Under the pieces are notes generated by a model. The model worked only from the letters and a program-made list of their open reading frames with translations. It made no database searches and was not told the origin of the DNA. DNA of 64,000 nucleotides from Ideonella sp. (GTDB lineage Bacteria; Pseudomonadota; Gammaproteobacteria; Burkholderiales; Burkholderiaceae_C), in NCBI GenBank assembly GCA_015075545.1, contig JABTUC010000003.1, positions 1-64,000 on the forward strand. Reading direction: 5' to 3'. This document shows positions 16,568 to 35,122 of this stretch, in pieces. Positions within the stretch are counted from its first letter, which is position 1; every line of letters begins with the position of its first letter. Both the position numbers and the translations under genes were made by a program.

Positions 16568-17354
16568 GCGCGGCAACGCCGCGACGGCCGCGTCGCCGCT
16601 GACAGTCTGGCTCGACGCCGACGGCGCGCTGCTGCGGCTGCGCCTGGCGCGGCCGAAAGCCAACATCGTCGACGCGCAGATGATCGCCGCGCTGCACGGC
16701 GCGCTGGTCGCCCACGGCGGCAACCGCCACCTGCGCGGCGTGCTGCTCGACGCCGAAGGCCCGCACTTCAGCTTCGGCGCCAGCGTCGAGGAGCATCTGC
16801 CCGCGCGCTGCGCGCAGATGCTCGCATCGCTGCACGAGCTGATCATCGCGATGGTCGAGTTTCCGGTGCCGATCCTGGTGGCGGTGCGCGGCCAGTGCCT
16901 CGGCGGCGGGCTCGAAGTCGCGCTGGCGGGCCACTGGATCTACGCCGCTCCCGACGCGCTGTTCGGCCAGCCCGAGATGAAGCTCGGCGTGTTCGCCCCC
17001 GCCGCGTCGGTGCTGCTGCCGTACCGCATGCACCTGCCGATGGCCGAAGACCTGCTGTACTCCGGGCGCTCGATCGGTGCCGCCGCCGCGCACGCCTGTG
17101 GCCTGGTGCACACCGTGGCCGACGACCCGCAGGCCGCGGCGCTCGGCTGGTTCCACGAACACCTGCTCGGCAAGAGCGCGGCCGCACTGGCCTGCGCCAC
17201 CGCGGCGGCACGCGGCGCGATGCAGCGCGACGTGCGCCAGCGGCTGGCCGAAGTGGAGCGTCTTTACCTCGATCAACTGATGGCCACACGCGACGCCAAC
17301 GAAGGCCTGGCCGCGTTCCTGGCCAAGCGCAAACCGCAATGGGAGCATCGCTGA
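16560..17354 (+). CDS. dch: Cyclohexa-1,5-diene-1-carbonyl-CoA hydratase
   Basis: A 264-residue crotonase-fold enzyme. The oxyanion region FSFGASVEEHLPARC and the second loop RGQCLGGGLEVALAGHW fit Dch. It hydrates the cyclic diene produced by benzoyl-CoA reductase to 6-hydroxycyclohex-1-ene-1-carbonyl-CoA. It starts inside the end of oah and its stop shares one base with the bcrC start, so translation is tightly coupled. Confidence 0.93.
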   Translation: MVERGNAATAASPLTVWLDADGALLRLRLARPKANIVDAQMIAALHGALVAHGGNRHLRGVLLDAEGPHFSFGASVEEHLPARCAQMLASLHELIIAMVEFPVPILVAVRGQCLGGGLEVALAGHWIYAAPDALFGQPEMKLGVFAPAASVLLPYRMHLPMAEDLLYSGRSIGAAAAHACGLVHTVADDPQAAALGWFHEHLLGKSAAALACATAAARGAMQRDVRQRLAEVERLYLDQLMATRDANEGLAAFLAKRKPQWEHR

Positions 17355-18535
17355 TGGCCGCCACGAAACCCCCCGTGATCCAGATCGTCGAGCGCTGCGA
17401 GGCGCTGTTCGAGGATCTGCATTTCAACGCCGTCAAGGAGTGGAAAGCCAAGGCGCCCGGCCGCAAGGCCATCGGCTACATGCCGGTGTACGTGCCGCGC
17501 GAGCTGATCCACGCCGCGGGCATGCTGTCGGTGGGCATCCTCGGCGGCGGCGACCAGCTCGAGGTGATCCAGGGCGACGCCTACTACCAGAGCTACATCT
17601 GTCGCATCCCGCGCTCGACCATCGAGCTGGGCCTCACCGGCCGGCTCGACTGCCTCGACGGCATGCTGTTCCCGAGCATCTGCGACGTGATCCGCAACCT
17701 GTCGGGCATGTGGCAACTGCTGTTCAAGGACAAGTACGTGCGCTACGTCGACGTGCCGCAGAACTACCAGGACGAGGTCGGCGGCCGCTTCTACGTGCAC
17801 GAGATGCAGCACATCCGCGACGACCTCGGCAAGCTGCGCGGCAAGCCCATCACCGACGCCGAGCTGAACGCCTCGATCGCCGTCTTCAACGAGAACCGGC
17901 GCGCGATCCGCGACCTCTACGCCTACCGTGCCGCCAAGCCGTGGCAGGCGCCGACCTCCGAGGTCTACCTGCTGCTGCGCGCGGGCATGGTGCTGCCCGT
18001 CGAGGAGCACACGACGCTGGTGCGCGAGTACCTCGCCGCGGTCGAGCAACTGCCGCGCCCGAAGCGCGACAACGCGCGCGTGGTGATCAACGGCTCGTTC
18101 TGCGAGCAGCCGCCACTGGCGCTGATCAAGTCGATCGAGATGTCGGGCTGCTACATCGTCGACGACGACTTCATGCTCGTCACGCGCTGGCTGCTCGACG
18201 ACGTGCCCGAGAACGGCAACCCGCTCGACGAGCTGAGCAAGGCCTTCCTGCACCGCTCGGCGGCCACCGCCGCCAAGTACGACGCCACGCGCGAAGAGAA
18301 GGGCGTCTTCCTGATGAAGCAGGTCAAGACGCGCGGCGCCGAGGGCGTAATCTTCGCGGCGCCGTCGTTCTGCGACCCGGCGCTGCTCGAGCGGCCGATG
18401 CTGCAGGACGTGCTGGCCAAGCAGAAGATCCCCTACACCGCCTTCAAGTACGCGGAGAACACCGGCCAGATGGCCCCCATCCGCGAGCAGGCCGGCACCT
18501 TCGCCGATTCCATCAAGCTCTGGAGCGCCGCATGA
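17354..18535 (+). CDS. bcrC: Benzoyl-CoA reductase subunit C
   Basis: A 393-residue subunit of the HgdB/BcrB-BcrC family, forming the substrate-reducing half of the ATP-dependent benzoyl-CoA reductase with BcrB. The conserved start PGRKAIGYMPVYVPRELIHA and LFPSICDVIRNLSGMW (with a cluster-ligand Cys) are visible. The ATG at 17354 follows GGGAG by 8 nt. The complex reduces benzoyl-CoA to the 1,5-diene using two electrons from ferredoxin and ATP hydrolysis in BcrA/BcrD. Confidence 0.95.
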   Translation: MAATKPPVIQIVERCEALFEDLHFNAVKEWKAKAPGRKAIGYMPVYVPRELIHAAGMLSVGILGGGDQLEVIQGDAYYQSYICRIPRSTIELGLTGRLDCLDGMLFPSICDVIRNLSGMWQLLFKDKYVRYVDVPQNYQDEVGGRFYVHEMQHIRDDLGKLRGKPITDAELNASIAVFNENRRAIRDLYAYRAAKPWQAPTSEVYLLLRAGMVLPVEEHTTLVREYLAAVEQLPRPKRDNARVVINGSFCEQPPLALIKSIEMSGCYIVDDDFMLVTRWLLDDVPENGNPLDELSKAFLHRSAATAAKYDATREEKGVFLMKQVKTRGAEGVIFAAPSFCDPALLERPMLQDVLAKQKIPYTAFKYAENTGQMAPIREQAGTFADSIKLWSAA

Positions 18536-19902
18536 ACACGCCCATCTCCATGCCCAGCCCGACCGGCACGGCCAAGAAGCCGAAAGAGGTCATCAAAGAA
18601 GACGCGATGTGGATGCAGAAGGAGCTGATCAACAGCAACTACAAGGAGCTGGCCAGCGCCCGTGCCAACAACCGCAAGGTGGCGGCCACCTTCGTTCCGG
18701 GCAACCTGAACGAGCTGCTGATGTGCTTCGACTTCGCGCGCAGCCTGCCCGAGACCAACGCGCTGCAGAACGGCATGCGCAAGAAGAGCGGCAAGTTCAT
18801 CATGGACGCCGAGCGCGACGGCCAGAGCGAGGACGTCTGCACCTACGTCAAGGCCGACCTCGGCATGATGCAGGGCGGCGAGATCGGCCCCACCGGCGAA
18901 GCGCTGCCGGTGCCCGACATCCTGCTGCTCAGCTACACCGGCTGCTTCACCTTCATGAAGTGGTTCGAGCTGATCCGCCACAAGTACGGCTGCGAGACCG
19001 TGATGCTGCACGTGCCCTACCAGGGCGACGGCAAGATCACGCCGGCGATGAAGGACTACGTCGTCAAGCAGCTCAAGGAGACGGTGATCCCGACGCTCGA
19101 GCGCGTCTCGGGAGTCAAGTTCGACATCGACCGCCTGCGCCAGTACATGCGCGAATCGGTCAAGGCCGAAGACAACCTGGTGCACGTGCTGCAGTCGGCC
19201 AAGAACCGGCCGAGCCCGATCGACGGCTACTTCGGCGCCGTGTACTACATCGGCCCGATCTTCACCGCCTTCCGCGGCACCAAGGAAGCCACCGAGTACT
19301 ACCGCGTGCTGCGCGGCGAGATCGACGAGCGCGTGCGCCTGGGCAAGGGCCCGGTCACGCCCGACGGCGACATGGGCGAGGAGAAGTACCGCCTGATCGT
19401 CGAGGGCCCGCCCAACTGGACGAGCTTCCGCGACTTCTGGAAGATGTTCTACGAAGAAGGCGCGGTGGTGGTGTCGTCCACCTACGCCAAGGTCGGCGGC
19501 CTGTACGACTTCGGTTTCCGCCACGACCCCGAGAACCCGCTGGAGTCGCTGGCCGAGTACTGCCTGGGCTGCTACACCAACCACAGCCTGCCCGGTCGAG
19601 TGGACATCATCTGCAACTACATGGAGCAGTACCAGGCCGACGGCCTGCTGATCAACTCGATCAAGAGCTGCAACAGCTTCTCGGCCGGCCAGCTGCTGCT
19701 GCTGCGCGAGGTGGAGAAGCGCACCGGCAAGCCCGCCGCGTTCATCGAGACCGACCTGGTGGATCCGCGCTACTTCTCGGCCGCCAACGTGAAGAACCGG
19801 CTCGAGAGCTACTTCCAGATGATCAAGCAGAAGCGCACCTACGGCCACGCGGCACCCACCGGCCCCGGCGGCAACCCGATCATCCCGATCGCCGCCAACT
19901 GA
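18532..19902 (+). CDS. bcrB: Benzoyl-CoA reductase subunit B
   Basis: A 456-residue partner of BcrC. Motifs include [18 protein letters not shown] and the cysteine-bearing [18 protein letters not shown]. It starts with an ATGA overlap on bcrC. With BcrC it binds the active-site iron-sulfur cluster and benzoyl-CoA. Sequence and gene order (C-B-A-D) are those of the class I Thauera-type enzyme. Nothing looks broken. Confidence 0.95.
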
Positions 19903-19924
19903 CCCATCGAGGAGCACAACGACC

Positions 19925-21265
19925 ATGCGTTGCTTCATCGGCATCGACCTCGGCTCGACCACCACGAAAGCGGTGGTGGTCGACGAGCACCAGAACGTGC
20001 TCGGCCGCGGCATCACCAACTCGCGCTCCAACTACGACACCGCCGCGGCGGTGGCCAAGCAGGAGGCGCTGCTGGCCGGCCGCTTCCAGCTCTTCCGCCA
20101 GGCGCTCGCCAAGAGCCAGGCGCTCAACGGCCACCTCGAGGGCTTCATCGGCCAGCTCGAGCGCGACTTCCGCGCCGAGCAGTACCTCGAGCAGCTCGAC
20201 GACCTCGAGGCCACTTGCCACCGCAACCTCGAGAAGACCAACTTCGGCGACGCGGGCCCCGCGATCGCCGAGGCGCTGGGCGTGGTGTTCAAGCAGCTCA
20301 AGCACGAGGCACCCGAGCTGTTCGCCCCCGGCGCCAAGCGCAAGAGCGACTTCTTCCGCGACATCGCCGGCAGCCAGTACCTGGCCGCGGGCGAGGCGGT
20401 GGCCAAGTCGATGAACCTGCGCTACGACTTCCTGCTCAACCTGTTCGACCGCTCGATCATCGAGGTCGAGAACCGCGTCTACGGCGACTCGATGCGCCGC
20501 CACCTGCTGTCGGCGCTCGAGCGCACCTTCATCGCGCTGCCCGACACCGCGTCGCGGCGCGCGCAGGTCGAGGCGCCGATCAAGGGCGTGCTCGACACCG
20601 TGATGGAGGAGACCTACGTCGTCGGCACCGGCTACGGCCGCGCGCGGCTGCCGTTCAGCAAGGAGCACATCCGCAGCGAGATCCTGTGCCACGGCCTGGG
20701 CGCGCACGTGATGTACCCGAACACCGCCACCGTGCTCGACATCGGCGGCCAGGACACCAAGGCGATCCAGGTCGACCCAGCCGGCATCGTCGAGAGCTTC
20801 CAGATGAACGACCGCTGCGCCGCCGGCTGCGGGCGCTACCTGGGCTACATCGCCGACGAGATGAACATGGGCCTGCACGAGCTGGGCCCGCTGGCGATGA
20901 AGTCGACCAAGAACATCCGCATCAACTCCACCTGCACCGTGTTCGCCGGCGCCGAGCTGCGCGACCGCCTGTCGCTCGGCGACAAGCGCGAGGACATCAT
21001 GGCCGGCCTGCACCGCGCGATCATCCTGCGCGCGATGTCGATCCTGGCGCGCTCGGGCGGCATCCGCAACGAGTTCACCTTCACCGGCGGCGTGGCCAAG
21101 AACGAGGCCGCGGTCAAGGCGCTGAAGGAGCTGGTGACCGAGAACTACGGCGAGCTCAAGCTCAACATCGACCCCGACTCGATCTACACCGGCGCGTTGG
21201 GCGGCGCCACGTTCGCGTGGCGCGCGGTCGTGGAAGAAGGCAAGACTGCGGAGGCAAAGGAATGA
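19925..21265 (+). CDS. bcrA: Benzoyl-CoA reductase ATPase subunit A
   Basis: A 446-residue ASKHA-fold ATPase. The phosphate-binding loop [16 protein letters not shown] is at the N-terminus. [12 protein letters not shown] is the second nucleotide motif, and the bridging [4Fe-4S] cysteines are in [13 protein letters not shown] and [12 protein letters not shown]. It is larger than BcrD because of an insertion at about 45-190, as in Thauera BcrA. With BcrD it couples ATP hydrolysis to electron transfer into BcrBC. A 148-bp repeat-rich gap follows before bcrD. Confidence 0.95.
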
Positions 21266-21413
21266 TCCACCCCCGTAACGGCCTTCGGCCGCCCCCCCTC
21301 GAGGGGGCGTCGCCAGCGGACCGGCAAAGCCGGATCCGCGGCGACCGCTTGGTTACAGCGGCCGGTGCGCAGCCACTCGCAGCAAACATCAACCGTAGCG
21401 TTAGGGTGCAAGC
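21266..21413. repeat. Palindrome-rich intergenic element between bcrA and bcrD
   Basis: This 148-bp spacer breaks an otherwise overlapping operon. It holds three inverted repeats: CGGCCTTCGGCCG, CCCCCCTCGAGGGGGC and GGACCGGCAAAGCCGGATCC. Such modular GC-rich palindromes are common between genes in Comamonadaceae-like genomes. It may alter the bcrD message level or be neutral; no coding sequence is seen. Confidence 0.6.
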
Positions 21414-22256
21414 ATGACTGTCCACACCATCGGCATCGACATCGGTTCGGGCGCCGTCAAGTCTGTGCTGTTCTCGTTCGACGAAAAGGGCAACCCCAAG
21501 TGGCTGGCCAAGCGCTGCGAGCGCATCCGCCGGCGCGACCCGATGACGCTGGCCGCCGAAGGCCGCGACGGCGTGCTCGCCGATGCCGGCATGGCGGTCA
21601 ACGACGTCGACTACATCGCCACCACCGGCGAGGGCGAGAACGTCAAGTTCGCCACCGGCCACTTCTACTCGATGACCACGCACGCGCGCGGCGGCGTGTT
21701 CCTCCAGCCCGAGGCGCGCGCGGTGGTCGACATCGGCGCGCTCAACGGCCGCGCGATCTCGGTCGACGATCGCGGCAAGGTGCTGTCGTACAAGATGACG
21801 AGCCAGTGCGCGTCGGGGTCGGGGCAGTTCCTCGAGAACATAGCGCGCTACCTCGGCGTCGCGGTCGAGGAGATCGGCCCGCTGTCGAAGACCTCGAAGG
21901 ATCCCGAGAAGGTCAGCTCGATCTGCGCCGTGCTCGCCGAGACCGATGTCATCAACATGGTCAGCCGCGGCATCGCCACGCCCGACATCCTGAAGGGCAT
22001 CCACCTGTCGATGGCCTCGCGCATCGTCAAGCTGCTCAAGGTCACCGGCGTCAAGAGCGGCGCCGCACTGCTCACCGGCGGGCTGGCGCTCGACACCGGC
22101 CTGCTGGCCGCGATCCAGGAGGAGATGGTCAACGAGAAGGTGCAGGTCAAGGCGATGTCGCACGCCGACTCGATCTACGCCGGCGCGATCGGCGCGGCGA
22201 TCTGGGGCGCGTACCGCCACGCCAAGCTCAAGGAGCTGGAAGCGGCCGCCGCCTGA
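21414..22256 (+). CDS. bcrD: Benzoyl-CoA reductase ATPase subunit D
   Basis: A 280-residue ASKHA ATPase, second half of the electron-activating dimer with BcrA. GIDIGSGAVKSVLFSF is the phosphate loop; cluster cysteines sit in TSQCASGSGQFLENIA and SSICAVLAETDVIN. The usual Thauera BcrD length is about 280. The ATG at 21414 follows AGGGTG. The gene is intact despite the repeat-rich spacer in front. Confidence 0.95.
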   Translation: MTVHTIGIDIGSGAVKSVLFSFDEKGNPKWLAKRCERIRRRDPMTLAAEGRDGVLADAGMAVNDVDYIATTGEGENVKFATGHFYSMTTHARGGVFLQPEARAVVDIGALNGRAISVDDRGKVLSYKMTSQCASGSGQFLENIARYLGVAVEEIGPLSKTSKDPEKVSSICAVLAETDVINMVSRGIATPDILKGIHLSMASRIVKLLKVTGVKSGAALLTGGLALDTGLLAAIQEEMVNEKVQVKAMSHADSIYAGAIGAAIWGAYRHAKLKELEAAAA

Positions 22257-25305: not shown

Positions 25306-25773
25306 TCAGGCGTTCGGCAGCTCCACCTGCTCGCGGTGCCCGAAGCCGCGGCTGTTGTCGATGAAGTACAGCCGCTGCGCCTCGATGCGGTACCAGCGCA
25401 CCTTGGCCAGCGCCTGCAAGATCGGCGCCGGCGCCGACGCCGCCCTGGCGATCAGCGGAAACTTCTCGCCGTAGCGCTGCCGCGCGAGGCGCGCCTCGTC
25501 GCCTTGCAGTTCGCGCGCGCGCCCTTCGAGCTGCACGCCCTTGATCCGCGACCACTCGCCGGTGTCGTCGTGGATTGTCGCGGCGCAGCGGGCGTCGTGC
25601 GCCAGGTTGCGGCAGTGGCGGGTGGCGGGCGACGACAGGAAGGTCAGCGCGCTGCCGTCGTGCACGTAGAACACCGCGGCGGCCCACGGCCCTTCGGGGC
25701 CGCAGGTGGCCAGCGTCAGCACGTGGTGGCGCGCGAGGTAGTCGGCCACCTCGTGGGCAAGCCCGGGGGTCAT
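25306..25773 (-). CDS. Pyridoxamine-5'-phosphate-oxidase-fold (FMN-binding) protein
   Basis: A 155-residue split-barrel protein. The start LARHHVLTLATCGPEGPWAA and the strand ALTFLSSPATRHCRNLA are typical of PPOX-family FMN or F420-type proteins of unknown substrate. Its start overlaps the stop of the sigma-54 activator by 4 nt, so the two are co-translated. A link to phenol sensing is only positional. Confidence 0.75.
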   Translation of the reverse strand: MTPGLAHEVADYLARHHVLTLATCGPEGPWAAAVFYVHDGSALTFLSSPATRHCRNLAHDARCAATIHDDTGEWSRIKGVQLEGRARELQGDEARLARQRYGEKFPLIARAASAPAPILQALAKVRWYRIEAQRLYFIDNSRGFGHREQVELPNA

Positions 25774-27503
25774 CCGGCCCGCCCGGCAGAGGCGCCCGCC
25801 GGCGCATCGGCCGCCGGGTCGCCCTCGTGCAGGCGCTTGAGCCGGTACGCGAGCTGCGGCCGGGTCAACCCGAGCATGCGCGCCGCGGCCGACAGGTTGC
25901 CGTGCGCCTTGTCGACCGCCGCCTCGAGCAGCGACACCTCGAGCTGCTCGAGCGTCATCGCACCGCTCAGCACGGCGTCGTAGAGGCTGCCCGCGCCGGC
26001 GCAGACGCTGCGGTCGAGGCCACCGCTGCGGCCCAGGCCGTACTCCGGCGGCTGCGGCTCGGCGCTCGGCGGGAACAGGTGGTTGACCTCGATGTAGCCG
26101 CCGTGCGGCGCCAGGATCACCCCGCGCTCGACCATGTTCTGCAGCTCGCGGATGTTGCCCGGCCAGGCGTGGCCGAGCAGCGCGCGCTTGGCCTTGTCGG
26201 TGAAGCCGCGCAGCTTCTTGCCGTGCACCGCGTTGTAGCGACCCAGGAAGTGCTTGGCCAGCGGCGAGATGTCGTCGCGGCGCTCGCGCAGCGGCGGAAT
26301 CTGCACCTGGTAGGCGTTGAGGCGGTAGAAGAGATCGGAGCGGAAGCGCCCTTCCTTGACGCGCTGCTGCAGGTCGCAGTTGGTCGCCGCGATCACCCGC
26401 ACGTCGACCTTGCGCAGCTTCTGCGCGCCCAGGCGCTCGATCTCGCCCTCCTGCAGCGCGCGCAGCAGCTTGCTCTGCGCCGGCAGCGGCAGCTCGGCGA
26501 TCTCGTCGAGGAACAGGCTGCCGCCGTCGGCGCGCTCGAAGCGGCCGGGACGCGAGCACTGCGCGCCGGTGTAGGCGCCCTTCTCGACGCCGAACAGCTC
26601 GGACTCGACCAGCTCGTTGGGGATGGCGCCGCAGTTCACCGCGACGAACTCGCGCGAGCGGCGCGGCCCCAGCTCGTGCAGCGCGCGTGCGAACAGCTCC
26701 TTGCCGACACCGGTCTCGCCCAGCAGCAGTACACCGATCTGGTTGCCCGCCGCGCGCTGGATCAGCTCGCACGCGGCGCGGAACCCGCGCGATTGCCCGA
26801 TCAGGTCGGCTGGCAGCTTCTCCTGCTCGCCGATCGTCGAGCGAAGCTGCACCACCTCGGTCTGCAGCTCGATCAGTTGCTCGGCGATCGATTGCGGCTC
26901 GAGGAAGCGCATGCACTCCTGCGCGTCGTCCCACTCCTCGACCGGCTTGCCCACGATGCGGCAGTTGGGGTCGCCCATGCCGGCGCACTCGACCTCCTTG
27001 TAGAGGATGGGCCGCCCCATGAACGCCGAGGTGTAGCCGCAGGCGTAGCCGATCTGCGTCCAGCACACCGGCTCGTTGTGCACGCCGTAGTGGTGGCGGT
27101 GCCACTGGCCCTCCCACGAGTTGTGCCACAGGAACTCGCCGTAGAAGGTGGCGGCGGCGCGGTTGAACTCCAGCCGCACCGGCGTCACCTGCACGATGCC
27201 CTCCAGCGTGTGCAGCTGCGGGCCGGTCATGAAGGCCTCGATGTCGCTGCAGTGCTCGGCGCGGGTGCGCGCCAGCTCGGCGTCGCGCAGCCCCGAGGCG
27301 TAGCCCATGCGCATCAGCAGGCCCTGCGCGCGCGGCATGCCCAGCGAGTCGATCAGCTCCTTGCGCAACAACGCCTGCGCCTCGGCGTGCACCAGCAGCA
27401 TGCGGTGCTCGTGCAGCCAGATCTGCCCGGTGTCGGGGCAGAAGTGCACGCGCGAACGGAGATCGTCGCTGACGCGGCGCGCCAGCTCGGGCAGGTTGGA
27501 CAA
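25770..27503 (-). CDS. XylR/DmpR-class sigma-54 activator, likely phenol sensor
   Basis: 577 residues. Domains: XylR-N/V4R sensor (about 20-190), linker, AAA+ (about 235-470; Walker [15 protein letters not shown] loop, a conservative change from GAFTGA) and a Fis-type helix-turn-helix ([18 protein letters not shown]). The sensor keeps the residues known from MopR/DmpR: His98 and Trp126 at the phenol-binding positions, and Cys147, Glu170, Cys173, Cys181 with the spacing of the MopR zinc site. It is divergent from ppsA, whose promoter has a matching sigma-54 element. Phenol-triggered activation of the pps operon is strongly suggested. Equivalent in role to PdeR-type regulators. Confidence 0.9.
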
Positions 27504-27627: not shown

Positions 27628-27683
27628 TTGATCAAAAGATCAGATCGCCGCCACCCCTCGCCCCGATTGAATCAAATGATCAA
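27628..27683 (+). promoter_or_regulatory. Pair of XylR/DmpR-type upstream activating sequences
   Basis: Site 1 is TTGATCAAAAGATCAG (27628-27643); site 2 is TTGAATCAAATGATCAA (27667-27683). Both resemble the TTGATCAATTGATCAA class of palindromes bound by XylR and DmpR. Their centres are about 39 bp apart, close to four helical turns, and site 2 is about 160 bp upstream of the -24 element, within the usual range. Confidence 0.7.
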
Positions 27684-27843: not shown

Positions 27844-27859
27844 TGGCACGACTCGTGCA
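27844..27859 (+). promoter_or_regulatory. Sigma-54 (-24/-12) promoter for the pps operon
   Basis: TGGCACGACTCGTGCA: GG at 27845-27846 and GC at 27857-27858 separated by exactly 10 bp, with TGGCACG matching the -24 consensus. It lies 70 bp upstream of the ppsA ATG, downstream of two activator sites, and divergent from a gene for a sigma-54 activator. Confidence 0.8.
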
Positions 27860-27929: not shown

Positions 27930-29765
27930 ATGAAGTTTCCAGTTCCGCACGACGTCAAGGCCCAGACGATTCCCGGCACCGAAGGCTGGGAGCGCATGTA
28001 CCCGTACCAGTACCAGTTCGTCACCGACGACCCGGCGCGCAACGCCTACGAGAAGGAGACCTTCTGGTTCTACGACGGCCTGCACTACCCCGAGCCGTTG
28101 TACCCGTTCGACACCATCTGGGACGAGGCGTGGTACCTCGCGCTGTCGCAGTTCAACAACCGCATCTTCATGGTGCCGCCGGTGCGCGGCGTCGACCACC
28201 GCATCATCAACGGCTACGTCTACATCTCGCCGGTGCCGGTGAAGGACCCCGAGGAGATCGGCAAGCGCGTGCCCAACTTCATGGAGCGCGCCGGCTACTA
28301 CTACAAGAACTGGGATTCGCTCGAGGCGAAGTGGAAGGTCAAGATGGAGGCGACCATCCGCGAGCTCGAGGCGCTGAAGATCCCGCGCCTGGCCGAGATG
28401 GAAGACCTGTCGGTGGTCACCGACGCGGTCGGCGAGTCCAAGGGCTACCACCTGCTGAAGAACTACGACGACCTGATCAACCTCGGCATCAAGTGCTGGC
28501 AGTACCACTTCGAGTTCCTGAACCTGGGCTACGCGGCCTACGTGTTCTTCCTCGACTTCGTGCAGAAGCAGTTCCCGAGCATCCCGGCGCAGCGCGTGAC
28601 GCAGATGATCTCGGGCATCGACGTCATCATGTACGAGCCCGACGAGCAGCTCAAGAAGCTCGCGCGCAAGGCGATCGAACTGGGCGTCGATTCGGCGGTC
28701 ACCTTCAGCCCCGAGTGGACGGTGGTCGAAGACGCGCTGAAGAAGACGCCCAAGGGCGTCGAGTGGCTGACCTCGCTGAACCTGGCGCGCGAGCCGTGGT
28801 TCAACATCTCCACCGGCACCGGCTGGTTCCACCACGACCGCTCGTGGAACGACCAGATGAACGTGCCGCTGTCGGGCATCGCCACCTACATCGGCAAGCT
28901 CAAGCAGGGTGCGTCGATCGACCGGCCCACCGAGAAGGTGCGCGCCGAGCGTGACCGCATCACCAAGGAGTACCGCGACCTGATCCAGAAGGAGGAGGAC
29001 CGCAAGCAGTTCGACGAGTTGCTCGGCTGCGCCAAGACGGTGTTCCCGTACGTCGAGAACCACCTGTTCTACGTCGAGCACTGGTTCCACTCGGTGTTCT
29101 GGAACAAGATGCGCGAAGTCGCCGCCATCATGAAGGAGCACGGCGTCATCGCCGACGTCGAGGACGTGTGGCTGCTCAAGCGCGACGAGATCAAGTCGGC
29201 GCTGTGGGACATCGTCACCGCCTGGGCCACCGGCGTGTCGCCGCGCGGCGCGCAGACCTGGCCCAAGGAGATCGCCTGGCGCAAGAGCGTCATGCAGAAG
29301 TTCAAGGAGTGGAAGGCGCCGCCGGCGATCGGCACAGCCCCCGAGGTGATCCAGGAGCCGTTCACGATCGTGCTCTGGGGCGTCACCAACAAGTCGCTGC
29401 AGGACTGGGCCTCGGTGCAGGAGGTCAAGGACCCCGAGAAGATCACCGAGCTGAAGGGCTTCGCCGGCAGCCCCGGCATCATCGAAGGCAAGGCGCGCGT
29501 CTGCCGCACGGTCAGCGAGGTCGGCCAGTTGCAGGAAGGCGAGATCCTGGTGGCGCCGACCACCAGCCCGTCGTGGGCACCGGCGTTTGCCAAGATCGGC
29601 GCGTGCATCACCGACGTCGGCGGCGTGATGAGCCACGCCGCGATCGTCTGCCGCGAGTACGGCATGCCGGCGGTGGTGGGCACCGGGCACGCGACCAAGA
29701 TCATCCGCACCGGCATGAAGCTGCGGGTCGACGGGTCGACGGGCACGGTGGCGATCGCGCGCTAG
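27930..29765 (+). CDS. ppsA: Phenylphosphate synthase subunit A (phosphohistidine subunit)
   Basis: A 611-residue protein related to the central part of PEP synthase. The C-terminal swivelling domain carries the phosphorylatable histidine, His569, in GGVMSHAAIVCREYG. The N-terminal 450 residues (start MKFPVPHDVKAQTIPGTEGW) form the phenol-handling part seen only in phenylphosphate synthases. With PpsB it transfers a phosphoryl group from ATP to phenol, the first step of anaerobic phenol degradation. GAGGAG lies 9 nt before the ATG at 27930. First gene of the operon under the sigma-54 promoter. Confidence 0.92.
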   Translation: MKFPVPHDVKAQTIPGTEGWERMYPYQYQFVTDDPARNAYEKETFWFYDGLHYPEPLYPFDTIWDEAWYLALSQFNNRIFMVPPVRGVDHRIINGYVYISPVPVKDPEEIGKRVPNFMERAGYYYKNWDSLEAKWKVKMEATIRELEALKIPRLAEMEDLSVVTDAVGESKGYHLLKNYDDLINLGIKCWQYHFEFLNLGYAAYVFFLDFVQKQFPSIPAQRVTQMISGIDVIMYEPDEQLKKLARKAIELGVDSAVTFSPEWTVVEDALKKTPKGVEWLTSLNLAREPWFNISTGTGWFHHDRSWNDQMNVPLSGIATYIGKLKQGASIDRPTEKVRAERDRITKEYRDLIQKEEDRKQFDELLGCAKTVFPYVENHLFYVEHWFHSVFWNKMREVAAIMKEHGVIADVEDVWLLKRDEIKSALWDIVTAWATGVSPRGAQTWPKEIAWRKSVMQKFKEWKAPPAIGTAPEVIQEPFTIVLWGVTNKSLQDWASVQEVKDPEKITELKGFAGSPGIIEGKARVCRTVSEVGQLQEGEILVAPTTSPSWAPAFAKIGACITDVGGVMSHAAIVCREYGMPAVVGTGHATKIIRTGMKLRVDGSTGTVAIAR

Positions 29766-29769
29766 CGAG

Positions 29770-30897
29770 GTGGTCGTGCACACTGCCGTGCAAAGAGCCG
29801 AGCGGCGGGGCGCGCCCTTCGGGGCGCGCCCGCCGCTGGTGTGCTGGTTCGACGAGTGCCTGAAGGAGTCGGTCCCGCTGGTGGGCGGCAAGAACGCCTC
29901 GCTCGGCGAGCTGATCAACGCCCAGGTGCGCGTGCCGCCGGGCTTCGCGCTCACCACCGAAGGCTACCGGCGCTTCATGGCCGAGGCCGGGCTCGAGCTC
30001 GAGGTCGCGGCACGCCTCGCGTGCGCCGACACCGAGGACCTCGAAGCGCTCGAGCGCATCAGCGCGTCGATCCGCTCGCTGATCGAAGATCACCCGTTCC
30101 CGCAGGAGATCGAGGACCTGGTGGCCGAGTGCTACCGCAAGCTCTCGCTGCGTTCGTGCCTGCCCGCGGTGCCGGTGGCGGTGCGATCGAGCGCCACCGC
30201 CGAGGACACCGCCGGCGCCAGCTTCGCCGGCCAGCAGGACACCTACCTGTGGATCCGCGGCGTCGACGAGGTGCTGCACCACGTGCGCCGCTGCATCTCC
30301 AGCCTCTACACCGCGCGCGCCATCGCGTACCGCGCGCGCCAGGGCTGGAGCGACGACACGCTGGCCATCAGCGTGGGCGTGCAGAAGATGGCCAACGCCT
30401 ACACCGCCGGCGTGATGTTCACGCTGCACCCGGCCAACGGCGACCGCTCGGTCATCGTGATCGATTCCAACTTCGGCTTCGGCGAGTCGGTGGTCTCGGG
30501 CGAGGTGACGCCCGACCACTTCGTGGTCAACAAGGTGACGCTCGACATCATCGACCGCACGATCGCGCACAAGGAGCTGTGCTACACGGTCGACGCCAAG
30601 AACCAGGTCTCGCGCGCCATCGAGGTGCCCGCCGAGCGCCAGAACGTGCAGTCGCTGATCGACGACGAGATCACCGAGCTGGCCTGGATCGGCAAGCAGA
30701 TCGAGAAGCACTACGGCGCGCCGATGGACATCGAATGGGCGGTCGACAAGGACCTCCCCTCGGGCGGCAACATCTTCATCCTCCAGGCCCGCCCCGAAAC
30801 CGTGTGGAGCCGGCGGCGCGAGAGCGCCACCGCCGGCGCCAGCTCGGCCATGGACTACATCGTGCGCGGCATGCTCACCGGCAAGCGCGTGAGCTGA
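29770..30897 (+). CDS. ppsB: Phenylphosphate synthase subunit B (ATP-binding subunit)
   Basis: A 375-residue protein homologous to the N-terminal ATP-grasp domain of PEP synthase: VPLVGGKNASLGELI, VAVRSSATAEDTAGASFAGQ and FILQARPETVWSRR. It phosphorylates the histidine of PpsA. Only GTG starts are available at the 5' end (29770, 29776); the second has GAGG at a better distance. It lies 4-10 bp after ppsA. PpsC is not adjacent: two other genes intervene, unlike the A-B-C order I recall from Thauera. Confidence 0.92.
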   Translation: MVVHTAVQRAERRGAPFGARPPLVCWFDECLKESVPLVGGKNASLGELINAQVRVPPGFALTTEGYRRFMAEAGLELEVAARLACADTEDLEALERISASIRSLIEDHPFPQEIEDLVAECYRKLSLRSCLPAVPVAVRSSATAEDTAGASFAGQQDTYLWIRGVDEVLHHVRRCISSLYTARAIAYRARQGWSDDTLAISVGVQKMANAYTAGVMFTLHPANGDRSVIVIDSNFGFGESVVSGEVTPDHFVVNKVTLDIIDRTIAHKELCYTVDAKNQVSRAIEVPAERQNVQSLIDDEITELAWIGKQIEKHYGAPMDIEWAVDKDLPSGGNIFILQARPETVWSRRRESATAGASSAMDYIVRGMLTGKRVS

Positions 30898-30953
30898 GCC
30901 CGCAACCCAAGACCCGTTCACCCCGACTCATCCGTTCCACCCAAGGAGACGAA

Positions 30954-32477
30954 ATGGATACCCGCACCGAGGTCAAGCCGATCAACGACCTGCGCAGCTA
31001 CATCGCCGCGCTCGAGGCGCACGGCCAACTGCACCGCGTGAAGGCCGAGGTCGACTGGAAGTACGAGCTGTGCCACGTGTCGAAGGTCAACGAGGAGAAG
31101 CAGGGCCCGGCGCTGCTGTACGAGAACGTCAAGGGCCACTCGATCCCGGTGTTCACCAGCGCCTTCACGACTCCCGAGCGCATCGCGATCGCGCTCGAGC
31201 AGAACCCCGGGCTGACGATGTGCCAGCTCTCGCGCAAGTGGATGGAGCTGACCACCAAGCAGTTGATCAAGCCGAGCTACGTCGACAAGCCGCCGGTGAT
31301 GGAGAACGTGGTCGAGGGCGACGCGGTCGACCTCGAGAAGTTTCCGGTGCCGTGGTTCTACCCCGACGACGGCGGCCGCTTCTTCGTCACCGCCGGCTAC
31401 CTGGTGACGAAGGACCCGGACACCGGCTGGACCAACCTCGGCACCTACCGCTCGCAGGTGCTCGGCAAGAACATCCTGGGCTCGCAGATCATCAAGGGCA
31501 AGCATGGCGACATGCACATGAAGAAGTACCAGGAGCGCGGCGAGCTGATGCCGGCGGCCGCGGTGGTGGGCTGCGACCCGGTGCTGTTCCTCGCCGGCTC
31601 GACGCTGGTGAGCGCGCAGACCGACGAGTACGACATCGCCGGCGCGCTGCGCGGCCGCCCGGTGCCGGTGTTCAAGTCCGACCTCACCGGGCTCACGCTG
31701 CCGGCCAACGCCGAGATCATCGCCGAGGGCTGGATCGACCCCAACGAGCTGATGGACGAAGGCCCGTTCGGCGAGTACACCGGCTACTACTCGGGCAACA
31801 AGGGCAAGGACTATCCGAAGCCCGTGCTGCGCGTCAAGCGCATCCTGCACCGCAACAAGCCGATCTTCTGGTCGACGACGGTGGGCAAGCCGATCAACGA
31901 CATCCACATGATCCAGTCGCTCAACCGCACCGGCGCGATGTGGTACGACCTCGAGACGATGAAGGTGCCGGGCATCCAGAGCGTCTACCTGCCGGCGGCG
32001 GCCACCGGCCGCTTCTGGGCCATCGTGTCGGTCAAGCAGATGTACCCGGGGCACTCCAATCACGTCGGCAACGCGGTGATCGCCAGCACCACCGGCCACT
32101 ACGGCCTGAAGGGCGTGATCGTGGTCGACCACGACATCGAGGCCGACGACATGGACCGCGTCTGGTGGGCGCTGGCCACGCGCTTCGACCCCAAGCGCTC
32201 GGCGCAGATCATCGACCGCGGCCGCTCGACGCCGCTCGACCCGGGGCTGCCGATCGAGGCGCGCGAGATCACCAGCCGCATCATCCTCGACGCCTGCACG
32301 CCGTACGAGTGGAAGAACAAGCCCAACGAGATCTTCATGGACCGGGCGATGCTGCAGAAGGTGTCGAGCCGCTGGAACGAGTACGGCTTCGAGGGCACCA
32401 GCCCGGTGGCCGAGATGATCAACCGCCTGACGCGGCCCGAAGCACCGGCCAAGAAGGCCAAGACCCACGAGATGTAA
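30954..32477 (+). CDS. ppcA: UbiD-family phenylphosphate carboxylase subunit
   Basis: A 507-residue UbiD-family (de)carboxylase. Family hallmarks: NLGTYRSQVLGKN, ELMPAAAVVGCDP and the acidic active-site stretch ELMDEGPFGEYTGYY, which carries the prenyl-FMN catalytic Glu positions. In the phenol pathway it carboxylates phenylphosphate to 4-hydroxybenzoate. Thauera uses two UbiD-like subunits plus an 18-kDa phosphatase-like and a 10-kDa subunit; here I find only this one. AAGGAG stands 6 nt before the ATG. It may work alone or with the neighbouring Tm-1-like protein (inference). The symbol is by analogy; it could correspond to either UbiD-like subunit. Confidence 0.85.
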   Translation: MDTRTEVKPINDLRSYIAALEAHGQLHRVKAEVDWKYELCHVSKVNEEKQGPALLYENVKGHSIPVFTSAFTTPERIAIALEQNPGLTMCQLSRKWMELTTKQLIKPSYVDKPPVMENVVEGDAVDLEKFPVPWFYPDDGGRFFVTAGYLVTKDPDTGWTNLGTYRSQVLGKNILGSQIIKGKHGDMHMKKYQERGELMPAAAVVGCDPVLFLAGSTLVSAQTDEYDIAGALRGRPVPVFKSDLTGLTLPANAEIIAEGWIDPNELMDEGPFGEYTGYYSGNKGKDYPKPVLRVKRILHRNKPIFWSTTVGKPINDIHMIQSLNRTGAMWYDLETMKVPGIQSVYLPAAATGRFWAIVSVKQMYPGHSNHVGNAVIASTTGHYGLKGVIVVDHDIEADDMDRVWWALATRFDPKRSAQIIDRGRSTPLDPGLPIEAREITSRIILDACTPYEWKNKPNEIFMDRAMLQKVSSRWNEYGFEGTSPVAEMINRLTRPEAPAKKAKTHEM

Positions 32478-32486
32478 GCCGCAGCC

Positions 32487-33752
32487 ATGACTCGAAAGGG
32501 CATCGTCGTCATCTGCAACCTCGACACCCGCGGCGAGGACATCGTCTTCGTCAAGGGGCTGATCGCCGGGCGCGGCCACGAGCCGATCCTGCTCGACTTC
32601 AGCATGGAGGAGCCGCCGCCCTTCCCCGGCGACATCCGCACCGAGGAGGTGGCACAGCGCGGCGGTCTGCCGATCGAGGTGGTGCGCGAGAAGTACCGCA
32701 GCGACCGCGACGCCGCCACGCAGAACCAGATCCGCGGCGCCTCGCGGATCGTCGACGACCTGATGAAGCAGGGCCGCGTGCACGGCATCATCGGCATCGG
32801 CGGCGGCACCGCGACGCTGGTGTCGACCTCGGTGATGAAGCGGCTGCCGTTCGGCTTCCCGAAGCTGATGGCCTCGCCGATGGCCGCGCACCCGGCGTAC
32901 ATCGACCAGTACGTCGGCACGCGCGACATCACGATGCACCACACGGTGCTCGACATCGTGAAGATGAACCCGCTGCTGAAGGCGCAGATCACCAACGCGG
33001 TGGGCGCCATCTGCGGCATGGTCGAGATGACGCAGGGCACGAACATCACGTTCGACAAGCCCTGCGTCGCGGTGTCGTCGTTCGGCTTCGGCGAGATGGC
33101 GGTGCAGACCGCGCTGGGCATGCTCGAGCAGGCGGGCTTCACGCCGATCGTCTGCCACGCGCAGGGCAAGGGCGACCGCGCGATGGAGGAGATGATCCGC
33201 GACGGCGCCTTCCACGGCGTGCTCGACATCTGCACCGGCGGCATCGTCGAGCACCTGTTCAAGGGCAACCGCGACCCGGGCCCCGAGCGGCTGATGGCCG
33301 CGGTGAAGACGGGCATCCCGATGGTGCTGGCGCCGTGCGGTCTCGACATCCTCTCGTACGGCGGCCGCGCCGACATGCTCGAGAAGACGAAAGACCGCGC
33401 GCAGGTGGTGCAGGACGCCTTGCGCGTGCAGGTGCGCACCACGGCCGACGAGCTGCGCCAGGCCGCCGACGTGATCGCCGAACGGCTCAATCAGGCGAAG
33501 GGGCGCTGGACGTTCCTGGTGCCGCTGAAGGGCTGGTCGTCGCTCGACCGCGAGGGCCGGCCGATCTACGACCCGGCCGCCGACGCCGCCTTCGTGGCGC
33601 GCTTGAAGCAGAAGCTGAACCAGCCCGAGCGCGTGAAGGAGGTCGACCTGCACCTGTACACGAGCGAGTTCGCGCGCGTGGCGGTCGATGAATTTCTCCG
33701 GCTCTTCGAGGGCGCGCGCGCGCCGCAGCGGGCCGCGGAGGTGCAGTCATGA
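32487..33752 (+). CDS. Tm-1-like ATP-binding domain protein (UPF0261)
   Basis: A 421-residue protein of the UPF0261/Tm-1 family. N-terminal Rossmann-like half: GIVVICNLDTRGEDIVFVKG, then the Gly-rich HGIIGIGGGTATLVST; C-terminal half around DICTGGIVEHLFKG. The plant Tm-1 protein binds ATP; the role of bacterial members is unknown. It follows the UbiD gene by 9 bp and overlaps ppsC by 4 nt, so it belongs to the phenol operon. It may stand in for the missing carboxylase subunits or assist phosphoryl transfer; both are conjecture. Confidence 0.8.
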   Translation: MTRKGIVVICNLDTRGEDIVFVKGLIAGRGHEPILLDFSMEEPPPFPGDIRTEEVAQRGGLPIEVVREKYRSDRDAATQNQIRGASRIVDDLMKQGRVHGIIGIGGGTATLVSTSVMKRLPFGFPKLMASPMAAHPAYIDQYVGTRDITMHHTVLDIVKMNPLLKAQITNAVGAICGMVEMTQGTNITFDKPCVAVSSFGFGEMAVQTALGMLEQAGFTPIVCHAQGKGDRAMEEMIRDGAFHGVLDICTGGIVEHLFKGNRDPGPERLMAAVKTGIPMVLAPCGLDILSYGGRADMLEKTKDRAQVVQDALRVQVRTTADELRQAADVIAERLNQAKGRWTFLVPLKGWSSLDREGRPIYDPAADAAFVARLKQKLNQPERVKEVDLHLYTSEFARVAVDEFLRLFEGARAPQRAAEVQS

Positions 33753-34438
33753 TCGTGCGCAACTGGATGCAGGTCGACCCGGCCGTGGTGCCGAGCGACA
33801 TGCTGGTCTCGGAAGCCAACCGGATCCTCAGCGAAGGCAACCTGCACGCGCTGCCGGTGGTCGACAACGGCCGCCTGCGCGGCCTGATCACGCGCGCCAA
33901 CCTGCTGCGCGTGGGGCACTACGTGGCGCGCGCGCAGAACGCCGACGAGCTCGACTTCTTCGTCACCCGGCTCAAGGTGCGCGACATCATGGTGCGCAAC
34001 CCCGCCACCGTGCAGGCCACCGACACCATGCAGCAGTGCATGCTCAAGGGCCGCCAGCTCGGGGTGGCGCAGTTCCCGGTGCTCGACGGCGAGCGGGTGG
34101 TCGGCGTGATCTCGGCCAACGAGATCTTCCAGCTCGCCGCGCACTGCCTGGGCGTGCTCGAACAGCGCAGCAGCGTCACGCTGGCGCCGCTGAGCATGGG
34201 GCCCGGCGTGCTCGGTCACATCGCCGACGTCGCCGAGGGGGCCGGCGCCGTGCTGCAGGCGCTGTACCCGATCGCCGGCGGACGCCAGCGGCCGGAGTAC
34301 GATGCGGCCGAATCCGGGACCCGGGTCGTGATCCGCTTTCACGCGCCGGCCGGCGCCGACGTGGTGTCGGCGCTCGAGGCGGCGGGGTTCCCGGTGCTCG
34401 AATCCGCAGACACTCCCCGCCAGAGCGTGGCGGCATGA
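33749..34438 (+). CDS. ppsC: Phenylphosphate synthase subunit C (CBS domains)
   Basis: A 229-residue AcuB-like protein: CBS motif 1 at about 1-55 (MIVRNWMQVDPAVVPSDML), CBS motif 2 at about 80-135 (VRDIMVRNPATVQATDTM), then an ACT-like C-terminal domain (GTRVVIRFHAPAGADVVSAL). In Thauera the third protein of phenylphosphate synthase stimulates PpsAB several-fold and has CBS domains, so this is the PpsC counterpart. It starts by ATGA overlap with the Tm-1-like gene. Confidence 0.85.
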   Translation: MIVRNWMQVDPAVVPSDMLVSEANRILSEGNLHALPVVDNGRLRGLITRANLLRVGHYVARAQNADELDFFVTRLKVRDIMVRNPATVQATDTMQQCMLKGRQLGVAQFPVLDGERVVGVISANEIFQLAAHCLGVLEQRSSVTLAPLSMGPGVLGHIADVAEGAGAVLQALYPIAGGRQRPEYDAAESGTRVVIRFHAPAGADVVSALEAAGFPVLESADTPRQSVAA

Positions 34439-34519
34439 CACGATGAGCCCCCGCCCGGCCGCTCCGAAGGGGGCGAATCCCGCTTGGCGGGAAGCGGCCG
34501 AAGGCCCAAGGGTGCACCA
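34439..34519. repeat. Palindrome-rich spacer between ppsC and the ubiX-like gene
   Basis: An 81-bp spacer with the hairpin TCCCGCTTGGCGGGA and a wider inverted repeat of CGGCCGCT and AGCGGCCG around it. As in the bcrA-bcrD gap, a GC-rich element splits closely packed genes. AAGGG lies before the next ATG. Confidence 0.5.
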
Positions 34520-35122
34520 ATGAGCCATCCCCTGATCGTTGCGATCACCGGCGCCACCGGCGTGATCTACGGCGTCGAGCTGCTGCGCGTGCTGAAGAAC
34601 CTCGGCCAGCCCGCGCACCTGATCCTCAGCGAAGCCGCCGGCATGAACCTGGCCATCGAGACCGAGTACTCGCTCGACGACGTGCGCTCGCTCGCCGCGG
34701 TGGTCTACAACAACAAGGACGTCGGCGCCGCGGTGGCCAGCGGGTCGTTTCGCACGCGCGGCATGATCGTTGCGCCGTGCACCGTGAAGACGCTGTCGGC
34801 GATCGCCAACTCGTTCACCTACAACCTGGTGGTGCGCGCCGCCGACGTGCAGCTCAAGGAGGGCCGCAAGCTGGTGCTGGTGGTGCGCGAGACGCCGCTG
34901 CACAAGGGGCACCTCGAGCTGATGACGCGCGCGGCCGACTGCGGTGCCGTGCTGCTGCCGCCGATGCCGGCGTTCTACCACCGCCCGCAGACCATCATGG
35001 ATCTGGTGCACCAGACGATCGGCAAGACGCTCGACCAGTTCGGCATCGAGCACAACCTGTTCCAGCGCTGGTCGGGCCACGGGCCCAACGCGGCCAAGCA
35101 GCCGGTGCGCGAAGCGGGCTGA
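34520..35122 (+). CDS. UbiX-like flavin prenyltransferase
   Basis: A 200-residue protein of the UbiX/Pad1 family: nucleotide loop VAITGATGVIYGVELL, APCTVKTLSAIANS, and the conserved LVVRETPLHKGHLELM and LLPPMPAFYHRP. UbiX makes prenylated FMN, the cofactor of UbiD enzymes; a dedicated copy in the phenol operon would serve the PpcA-like carboxylase. Last gene of the operon; it meets the convergent NnrS-like gene 9 bp later. Confidence 0.9.
   Translation: MSHPLIVAITGATGVIYGVELLRVLKNLGQPAHLILSEAAGMNLAIETEYSLDDVRSLAAVVYNNKDVGAAVASGSFRTRGMIVAPCTVKTLSAIANSFTYNLVVRAADVQLKEGRKLVLVVRETPLHKGHLELMTRAADCGAVLLPPMPAFYHRPQTIMDLVHQTIGKTLDQFGIEHNLFQRWSGHGPNAAKQPVREAG

Follow-up and report, generated by a model that had tools for sequence, protein, structure and literature searches.

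A 64,000-nucleotide stretch of Ideonella sp. (contig JABTUC010000003.1, positions 1 to 64,000; hereafter the window) carries a six-gene operon for phenol carboxylation in which a single UbiD-family carboxylase, PpcB, is followed by a gene of the UPF0261/Tm-1-like family. Across genomes, PpcB travels with one of two types of partner, and sequence comparisons make it highly probable that PpcB and UPF0261 together constitute a carboxylase kit. Our best overall explanation, which we put at about an even chance, is that this is a compact phenol operon in which UPF0261 serves as a phosphoryl-handling partner of PpcB. The single-UbiD phenol cluster is already known; the link to UPF0261 is apparently new in the open-access literature, in which we found no paper tying UPF0261/Tm-1-like proteins to phenylphosphate or phenol carboxylation.

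The operon and the subunits it lacks

The operon spans 27930–35122 on the plus strand, with ppsA, ppsB, one UbiD gene, a UPF0261 gene, ppsC and ubiX in that order and all in frame. Between ppcB and ppsC lies the UPF0261/Tm-1-like gene (32487–33752; PF06792 plus PF23189), the proposed carboxylase partner, which belongs to the group that we call B below. The UbiD gene (ppcB, 30954–32477) falls in the beta clade of phenylphosphate carboxylase, scoring 571 bits against TIGR02724 (cut-off 469) and 188 bits against the alpha model TIGR02723 (cut-off 565). Its product carries the N, core and C domains of UbiD (PF20695, PF01977 and PF20696), and in an alignment to solved UbiDs R166, E269 and E274 fall in conserved motifs, which we take to be the R/E/E triad of enzymes that use prenylated flavin mononucleotide (prFMN). 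Together with the ubiX-like flavin prenyltransferase gene that closes the operon (34520–35122; NF004685, 247 bits, cut-off 188), these domains and residues give the operon the sequence hallmarks of a prFMN-UbiD system. The parts expected of a PpsABC synthase are also present: ppsA (27930–29765) encodes the phenylphosphate synthase subunit with the swivel domain (PEP-utilisers mobile domain; NF006152, 1239 bits, cut-off 723), with phospho-acceptor His569 in the motif SHAAIV, ppsB (29770–30897) encodes the ATP-grasp subunit (PPDK_N, PF01326, 385 bits), and ppsC (33749–34438), whose first 4 bases are also the last 4 of the UPF0261 gene, encodes CBS domains (PF00571, two stretches).

The layout given in a preliminary description of this DNA, with one UbiD gene and a UPF0261 gene between ppsB and ppsC and a UbiX gene last, was thus borne out for every gene and in the stated order, with support from Pfam and NCBIfam. 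That description had also reported that the second UbiD-like subunit, the HAD-type 18-kDa subunit and the 10-kDa subunit were absent, which holds in an assembly of 3.69 Mb that is 85.4% complete. The genome-wide search that it had called for recovered three UbiD genes but nothing PpcA-like (none in the operon, and best matches elsewhere of 27–32% identity), no PpcC (no match to TIGR02725 at E ≤ 1) and no convincing PpcD (none in the operon, and a sole match, 35% identical and on another contig, that is probably a widespread KdsC-type HAD protein). We dropped the possibility that the genome holds another full ppc set, as none was found in this assembly.

The Thauera/Aromatoleum operon (known on the Thauera side from papers) has in common with the window a divergent regulator, a sigma54 promoter, PpsA, PpsB, PpsC, a PpcB-family protein and UbiX. 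Of the Thauera-type PpcABCD enzyme, however, the window encodes the beta subunit and lacks the alpha, gamma and delta subunits: it has no PpcA, PpcC, PpcD or extra UbiD gene and has UPF0261 instead, its ppsC comes after the carboxylase genes, and its PpcB is ~53% identical.

PpcB and its two types of operon partner

A PpsA search of named genomes gave 274 relatives, of which we retained 80 loci (80–93% PpsA identity); the query subunits applied to these loci came from the Aromatoleum diolicum locus L086. Many of these genomes are metagenome assemblies, UPF0261 copies distant from ppsA are under-sampled because the loci were located through ppsA, and the locus counts are not fully independent because some loci share one genome (L065/L129, L045/L057, L077/L123 and L054/L122; in addition, G132, G355 and G356 match L072, L021 and L073). 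The order ppsA-ppsB-ppcB-UPF0261-ppsC recurred in 34 of the 80 loci, with a ubiX match behind it in 28 of the 34, and the window layout is therefore not a chance arrangement; the comparison of UPF0261 synteny with ppsAB that had been suggested earlier thus gave a recurrent association. A second order, ppsA-ppsB-ppsC-ppcB-ppcD-ppcA-ppcC, accounted for 24 loci, plus one that ended after ppcB. The remainder comprised a rearranged locus (L065), five loci with an acyl-CoA ligase at the UPF0261 place (type-3 loci: L025, L026, L036, L037 and L039) and 15 incomplete loci, in one of which (L059) the opening codons of UPF0261 were visible. No locus among the 80 contained both kits.

Both kits also recurred in a second phylum, that of genome G437 (Syntrophaceae; presumably Desulfobacterota), where 70 of 395 drawn genomes had a PpsA relative, at 79 places, of which we analyzed 68 (L132–L199) together with three loci of G437's class (L116–L118). 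Group-B UPF0261 proteins of this phylum were 35–57% identical to the window protein, and of the 30 loci that have both PpcB and group B, 23 include an acyl-CoA ligase gene and 12 a PF21758 gene, which we take to resemble the prFMN chaperone LpdD. We rejected the acyl-CoA ligase as a replacement for UPF0261 on the basis of its co-occurrence with UPF0261 in those 23 loci.

A tree of UPF0261 proteins contained two groups linked to pps genes. (Trees in this work were quick searches, with support given by the Shimodaira–Hasegawa-like approximate likelihood ratio test, SH-aLRT, only.) Group B (66 rows, SH-aLRT 100) included the window protein, and 62 of its 66 rows adjoined ppcB or the CoA ligase gene; group A (19 rows, SH-aLRT 94) had mixed neighbors, mainly ppsB, LpdD or ubiX. 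Because group A occurs alongside PpcA, in genomes G804, G881 and G991, we limit the claim of mutual exclusion to group B and rejected pooling all UPF0261 genes. A group-A paralogue shared the locus of a group-B copy in L116–L118, L132, L133, L137–L139, L165, L173, L176, L178, L189 and L194. Group-B UPF0261 adjoined PpcB in Burkholderiales, Rhodocyclaceae, Xanthobacteraceae, Myxococcales, Deltaproteobacteria and a further phylum, and within the window's own order, Burkholderiales, a close UPF0261 (E ≤ 1e-60) was found in 4 of 399 genomes, with all four copies inside a pps operon. Some loci (L022, L038, L055, L057, L062 and L073) carried a gene that we label Nudix-like from its sequence between UPF0261 and ppsC; it was set aside as a candidate component, being present in some loci only.

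Among 113 PpcB loci sorted by best-hit class, 67 contained group-B UPF0261, 35 contained PpcA and PpcD, 11 contained neither (seven of them on short contigs) and none contained both; all 67 group-B loci had a window-type PpcB, and all 35 PpcA-and-PpcD loci had an Aromatoleum-type PpcB. The 79 loci with full flanks (at least 4.5 kb behind and at least 3 kb before ppcB) divided in the same way into 51 with PpcB and group-B UPF0261, 24 with PpcB, PpcA and PpcD, four with neither (three type-3 loci and L181) and none with both. The partner type switched once on the PpcB tree (64 versus 35 rows), whereas on the PpsA tree it switched 7 times among the 79 full-flank loci scored for group B and 11 times among 108 loci labeled with any UPF0261. 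Because of this disparity, we conclude from the sequences that the carboxylase cassette is exchanged repeatedly behind a conserved synthase, with PpcB keeping its partner type. An initial independent-pairs test was set aside as partly circular, since loci lacking both partners had been omitted; redone with full-flank loci alone, it yielded 7 pairs, of which none changed the same way and a mean of 5.8 changed in opposite ways (median p 0.031, range to 0.0625). Across 64 loci, UPF0261 distances correlated more closely with those of PpcB (r 0.81; partial 0.61 given PpsA) than with those of PpsA (r 0.73; partial 0.38), and about as closely as PpsA and PpsB do with each other (0.81).

The genomes as wholes gave a similar picture. 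PpcA at ≥50% identity was found in none of the 34 genomes of UPF0261 type in the 80-locus set (three held a homologue of 39–41%), and in G437's phylum, where the subunit searched for genome-wide was PpcA rather than PpcC or PpcD, PpcA at E ≤ 1e-110 was found in 23 of 72 genomes overall and in none of the 30 with a PpcB and group-B locus. The leaner carboxylase with a Tm-1-like partner that the preliminary description had imagined is thereby well supported as regards the partner link, by the PpcB split, the swaps relative to PpsA and the absence of PpcA from the searched genomes that have this layout. An alternative in which PpcB needs no partner and UPF0261 rides along as an accessory, acting for example in tolerance or regulation, would accommodate the one five-locus clade that lacks UPF0261, but it sits poorly with the retention of the UPF0261 orthogroup next to PpcB across several lineages and a second phylum and with the exclusion of PpcA, PpcC and PpcD by group-B UPF0261; we consider it distinctly unlikely.

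Kinship and possible chemistry of the UPF0261 protein

An AlphaFold2 model of the UPF0261 protein (predicted local distance difference test score, pLDDT, 94) had family members alone as good structural matches. The best solved ones, matching over the whole-chain fold at 25–29% identity, were Tm-1 (3wrx, 3wrw and 3wry) and 9mpy (E 1.6e-32, template-modeling score, TM, 0.60), which by its title is Saro_1862, a UPF0261 domain protein of Novosphingobium aromaticivorans with acetovanillone bound. As passages of two papers describe, in this bacterium a single-component kinase, MarK, starts the breakdown of acetovanillone, a step for which relatives employ a two-component dikinase with homology to PpsAB (PMC13101465, PMC12167813). 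Saro_1862 is probably MarK, and the UPF0261 family thus includes a phenol-binding protein that is probably a phenolic kinase. Because the predicted fold of the window protein is that of this phenol-bound, probable kinase, phosphoryl transfer in either direction would fit UPF0261. The hydroxyphenylethanone (Hpe/Acv) pathway, as passages of the papers on it present it, similarly phosphorylates a phenol with a PpsAB-like dikinase or MarK and continues with carboxylation and dephosphorylation, but it does so with a biotin carboxylase and a NagD-type phosphatase and no UbiD (PMC12167813, PMC9618137, PMC13101465). On a Sphingobium plasmid (L091:2820-10321), a Tm-1-like gene lies amid genes for a biotin carboxylase, a HAD hydrolase and beta-keto cleavage, a set that resembles the hydroxyphenylethanone pathway with UPF0261 replacing the two-component kinase.

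The window protein shares the domains and predicted fold of the UPF0261/Tm-1 family (the N-terminal domain of tomato Tm-1, and Saro_1862) but differs in its residue changes and in having a UbiD as operon partner rather than the usual TBST barrel. It retains G105, G106, K126, R268 and R304 of canonical members; group B departs from 9mpy at G230D, E252G, D255E and A262R (9mpy residue first), and both pps-linked groups depart at N152H, N310D and L313R, the last introducing a new arginine. In the model, the changed positions fall where strands end or helices begin and in one hairpin. A canonical role was rejected, as the second UPF0261 copy of the Ideonella genome (28%) lies outside the phenol genes, among genes that read as an aminotransferase and a HAD protein.

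The chemistry of PpsAB and of UbiD/UbiX is established. In the scheme that we propose, PpsA and PpsB, with PpsC, would make phenylphosphate from phenol and ATP, and the single PpcB-clade UbiD, with prFMN from UbiX, would carboxylate it in the para position to give 4-hydroxybenzoate, which 4-hydroxybenzoyl-CoA reductase (HcrA, encoded elsewhere in the genome) and the benzoyl-CoA reductase pathway encoded nearby would process further. UPF0261 would stand in for PpcA, PpcC and PpcD and work with PpcB in their stead: it would most likely bind phenylphosphate, remove or transfer the phosphoryl group and pass phenolate to PpcB, a task that in Thauera falls to the HAD-type delta subunit. We favor a function in handling the phosphoryl group during carboxylation, because UPF0261 tracks PpcB, is mutually exclusive with the HAD subunit and is related to probable kinases; we adopt this reading tentatively, as having a chance that approaches one in two; UPF0261 and PpcB may also associate physically. 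According to a passage of one report, Thauera requires its HAD subunit for phenylphosphate use (PMC6114531). The earlier suggestion that the Tm-1-like protein deals with phosphate release is, given the predicted fold of its probable kinase kin, plausible rather than demonstrated. Transfer of the phosphoryl group to water or to ADP would fit the evidence alike. In a more specific version, which we regard as very doubtful, UPF0261 would run a phenolic kinase backwards, moving the phosphoryl group of phenylphosphate to ADP, delivering phenolate to UbiD and recovering one ATP; if true, the gain would be the ATP that denitrifiers lose when their HAD subunit releases phosphate, and this could explain why the kit is common in the genomes of energy-poor anaerobes.

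The same kinship could be read differently, with UPF0261 as an additional phenol kinase of the MarK kind, which would help the PpsAB dikinase or save its high cost, and with PpcB carboxylating alone. Besides the fold and family of the acetovanillone-binding, probable MarK protein, this reading could draw on the coupling of UPF0261 to PpsA/B-like genes without a UbiD in one locus (L126) and on the adjacency of group-A UPF0261 to ppsB in 6 of 19 rows. UPF0261 nevertheless tracks PpcB rather than PpsA, and a close copy is missing from all 25 alpha-type genomes, where such a kinase would serve too (nine hold distant copies of 26–32% only). Moreover, ppsB is retained in 34 of 34 UPF0261 loci of the 80-locus set and in 29 of 30 in G437's phylum (retention of ppsA is uninformative because loci were located through it), and positions conserved in canonical members are altered. 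We judge a second kinase to be rather improbable. Alternatively, UPF0261 might support PpcB structurally or activate it, standing in for PpcA and PpcC or helping to load prFMN, with no phosphate chemistry. Two of the three replaced subunits, alpha and gamma, are indeed not phosphatases, and a passage on the family elsewhere gives it a protein partner, the TBST barrel, with UPF0261 in 491 of 504 TBST genomes (PMC5028733). However, because an LpdD-like gene stands beside UPF0261 in 12 of the 30 loci of G437's phylum, the role of prFMN chaperone is already filled there, and the chemistry of the family points to phenols and phosphate; we think this unlikely.

Several observations weigh against UPF0261 as the phosphoryl-handling partner of PpcB. 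The five type-3 loci form one clade of the PpcB tree, with PpcB and with the acyl-CoA ligase at the UPF0261 position, and their genomes hold neither a close UPF0261 nor PpcA, which counts against UPF0261 being essential. Genome G442 (L077, L123) appears to combine part of a window-type PpcB, lying where a contig ends, with a full alpha-type operon and has no UPF0261 at E ≤ 1e-20. A PpcD-like HAD gene lies on another contig in the UPF0261-type genome of L019 (60%), and the L054/L122 genome also has one (48%); L171 holds PpcA, PpcC and PpcD plus a group-A UPF0261. L126 has a UPF0261 gene (64%) by ppsA/ppsB-like genes with no UbiD on its 16.3-kb contig, and therefore points to the phosphorylation step. 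The argument from distance correlation is weakened by the fact that operon neighbors co-diverge anyway. In addition, a passage of one paper reports that two refolded UbiDs of Desulfatiglans anilini were able to carboxylate phenylphosphoamidate in vitro with UPF0261, gamma and delta all absent (PMC7500099).

Further observations bear on these subjects. A calcineurin-like phosphatase gene follows ubiX in the four type-3 loci that reach that far; we rejected this metallophosphatase as a replacement for UPF0261 because it is not specific: the 19 loci that have it include all three types. L125:1706-5192 places a UPF0261 gene (71% to the window) by divergent ppsA- and ppsB-like genes, and its incomplete 5.2-kb contig holds no UbiD; together with L126:8149-12899 it possibly represents another phenol-phosphorylating pathway. 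In the UPF0261-type genome of L062, a PpcA-like UbiD gene (40%) at L128:9648-11297 has a small PpcC-like gene (30%) immediately behind it, with no pps gene in that 19-kb stretch.

A cultured phenol degrader and the predicted Ideonella phenol route

The kit is present in a cultured phenol degrader. Proteins of genome G810 have masses of 50.501, 39.928 (from the second Met) and 52.240 kDa (L180, L200) and 51.922 kDa (L181), equal to those printed for D. anilini 02049, 02051, 02059 and 03563 in the part of the paper that lists them (PMC6114531). The exception was PpsA, at 70.380 against 70.027 printed, a value that none of the starts tried gave. The gene order agrees with the D. anilini cluster throughout, and L180, identified by the protein masses, is the D. 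anilini phe cluster. It reads ppcB, CoA ligase, UPF0261, ubiX, CO-dehydrogenase-type genes, ppsA and ppsB, so that by position UPF0261 is 02057, flanked by ubiX (02056) and the gene for the 2,3-dihydroxybenzoate-AMP ligase (02058); the main texts of two D. anilini papers make no mention of 02057. The UbiD at L181:4606-6147, which by mass is 03563 and was published as PpcA, is a beta-side UbiD with the window PpcB as best match (55%).

Passages of the same report (PMC6114531) state that the enzymes of cluster 02049–02059 occur at much higher levels with phenol than with benzoate, that D. anilini is without a gamma subunit, that carboxylase activity was not demonstrable in extracts, and that a different carboxylation mechanism was suspected. 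Single-UbiD phenol clusters were reported there for both Geobacter metallireducens and D. anilini; they share with the window a single PpcB and no gamma (G. metallireducens as given in the paper) but differ in gene order, and the UPF0261 gene of D. anilini goes unnamed in the papers.

In Ideonella, a benzoyl-CoA cluster upstream of the operon (15440–22256) comprises oah, dch, bcrC, bcrB, bcrA and bcrD, each above its NCBIfam cut-off, and is followed by genes for an OYE-type oxidoreductase and a YfhL-type ferredoxin; an HcrA gene (1152 bits, cut-off 995) lies elsewhere in the genome. Because the operon, the bcr cluster and the HcrA gene are all present, a route from phenol through phenylphosphate and 4-hydroxybenzoate to benzoyl-CoA is genetically supported at the steps that these genes cover.

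The operon is faced by a minus-strand gene (25770–27503) for a PheR/MobR-like regulator of XylR_N-V4R-sigma54 type (Pfam XylR_N, V4R and Sigma54_activat), which scored 619 bits against NF041906 MobR, under the cut-off of 999. On the plus strand between them, 70 bp 5′ of ppsA, is a -24/-12 (sigma54) promoter motif, TGGCAC-N6-TGCA (27844–27859), the sole match within the window (0.19 expected). A looser form was found in 58 of 72 stretches between regulator and ppsA, drawn from the 80-locus set plus the window (29/33 UPF0261-type, 19/24 alpha-type and 10/15 others), as against 35 of 1440 random controls. Further upstream, TTGATCAAAAGATCA (27628–27642, plus strand) may be an activator site; a second copy with 2 mismatches lies at 27668–27682, making two matches against 0.03 expected, and a looser form occurred in just 6 of the 72 related intergenic stretches.

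These results bear on how strict anaerobes carboxylate phenol without the gamma subunit of Thauera and, for clusters with PpcB only, without alpha and delta as well. An overlooked, operon-conserved partner from a phenol-binding, probably kinase family may explain why carboxylase assays failed. The role that we suggest would be the first proposed metabolic role for this UPF0261 orthogroup, and would make phenol carboxylation the second aryl-phosphate pathway to feature the UPF0261 family. More broadly, phenol-degrading anaerobes appear to use two interchangeable carboxylase kits, of which the window encodes the leaner one.

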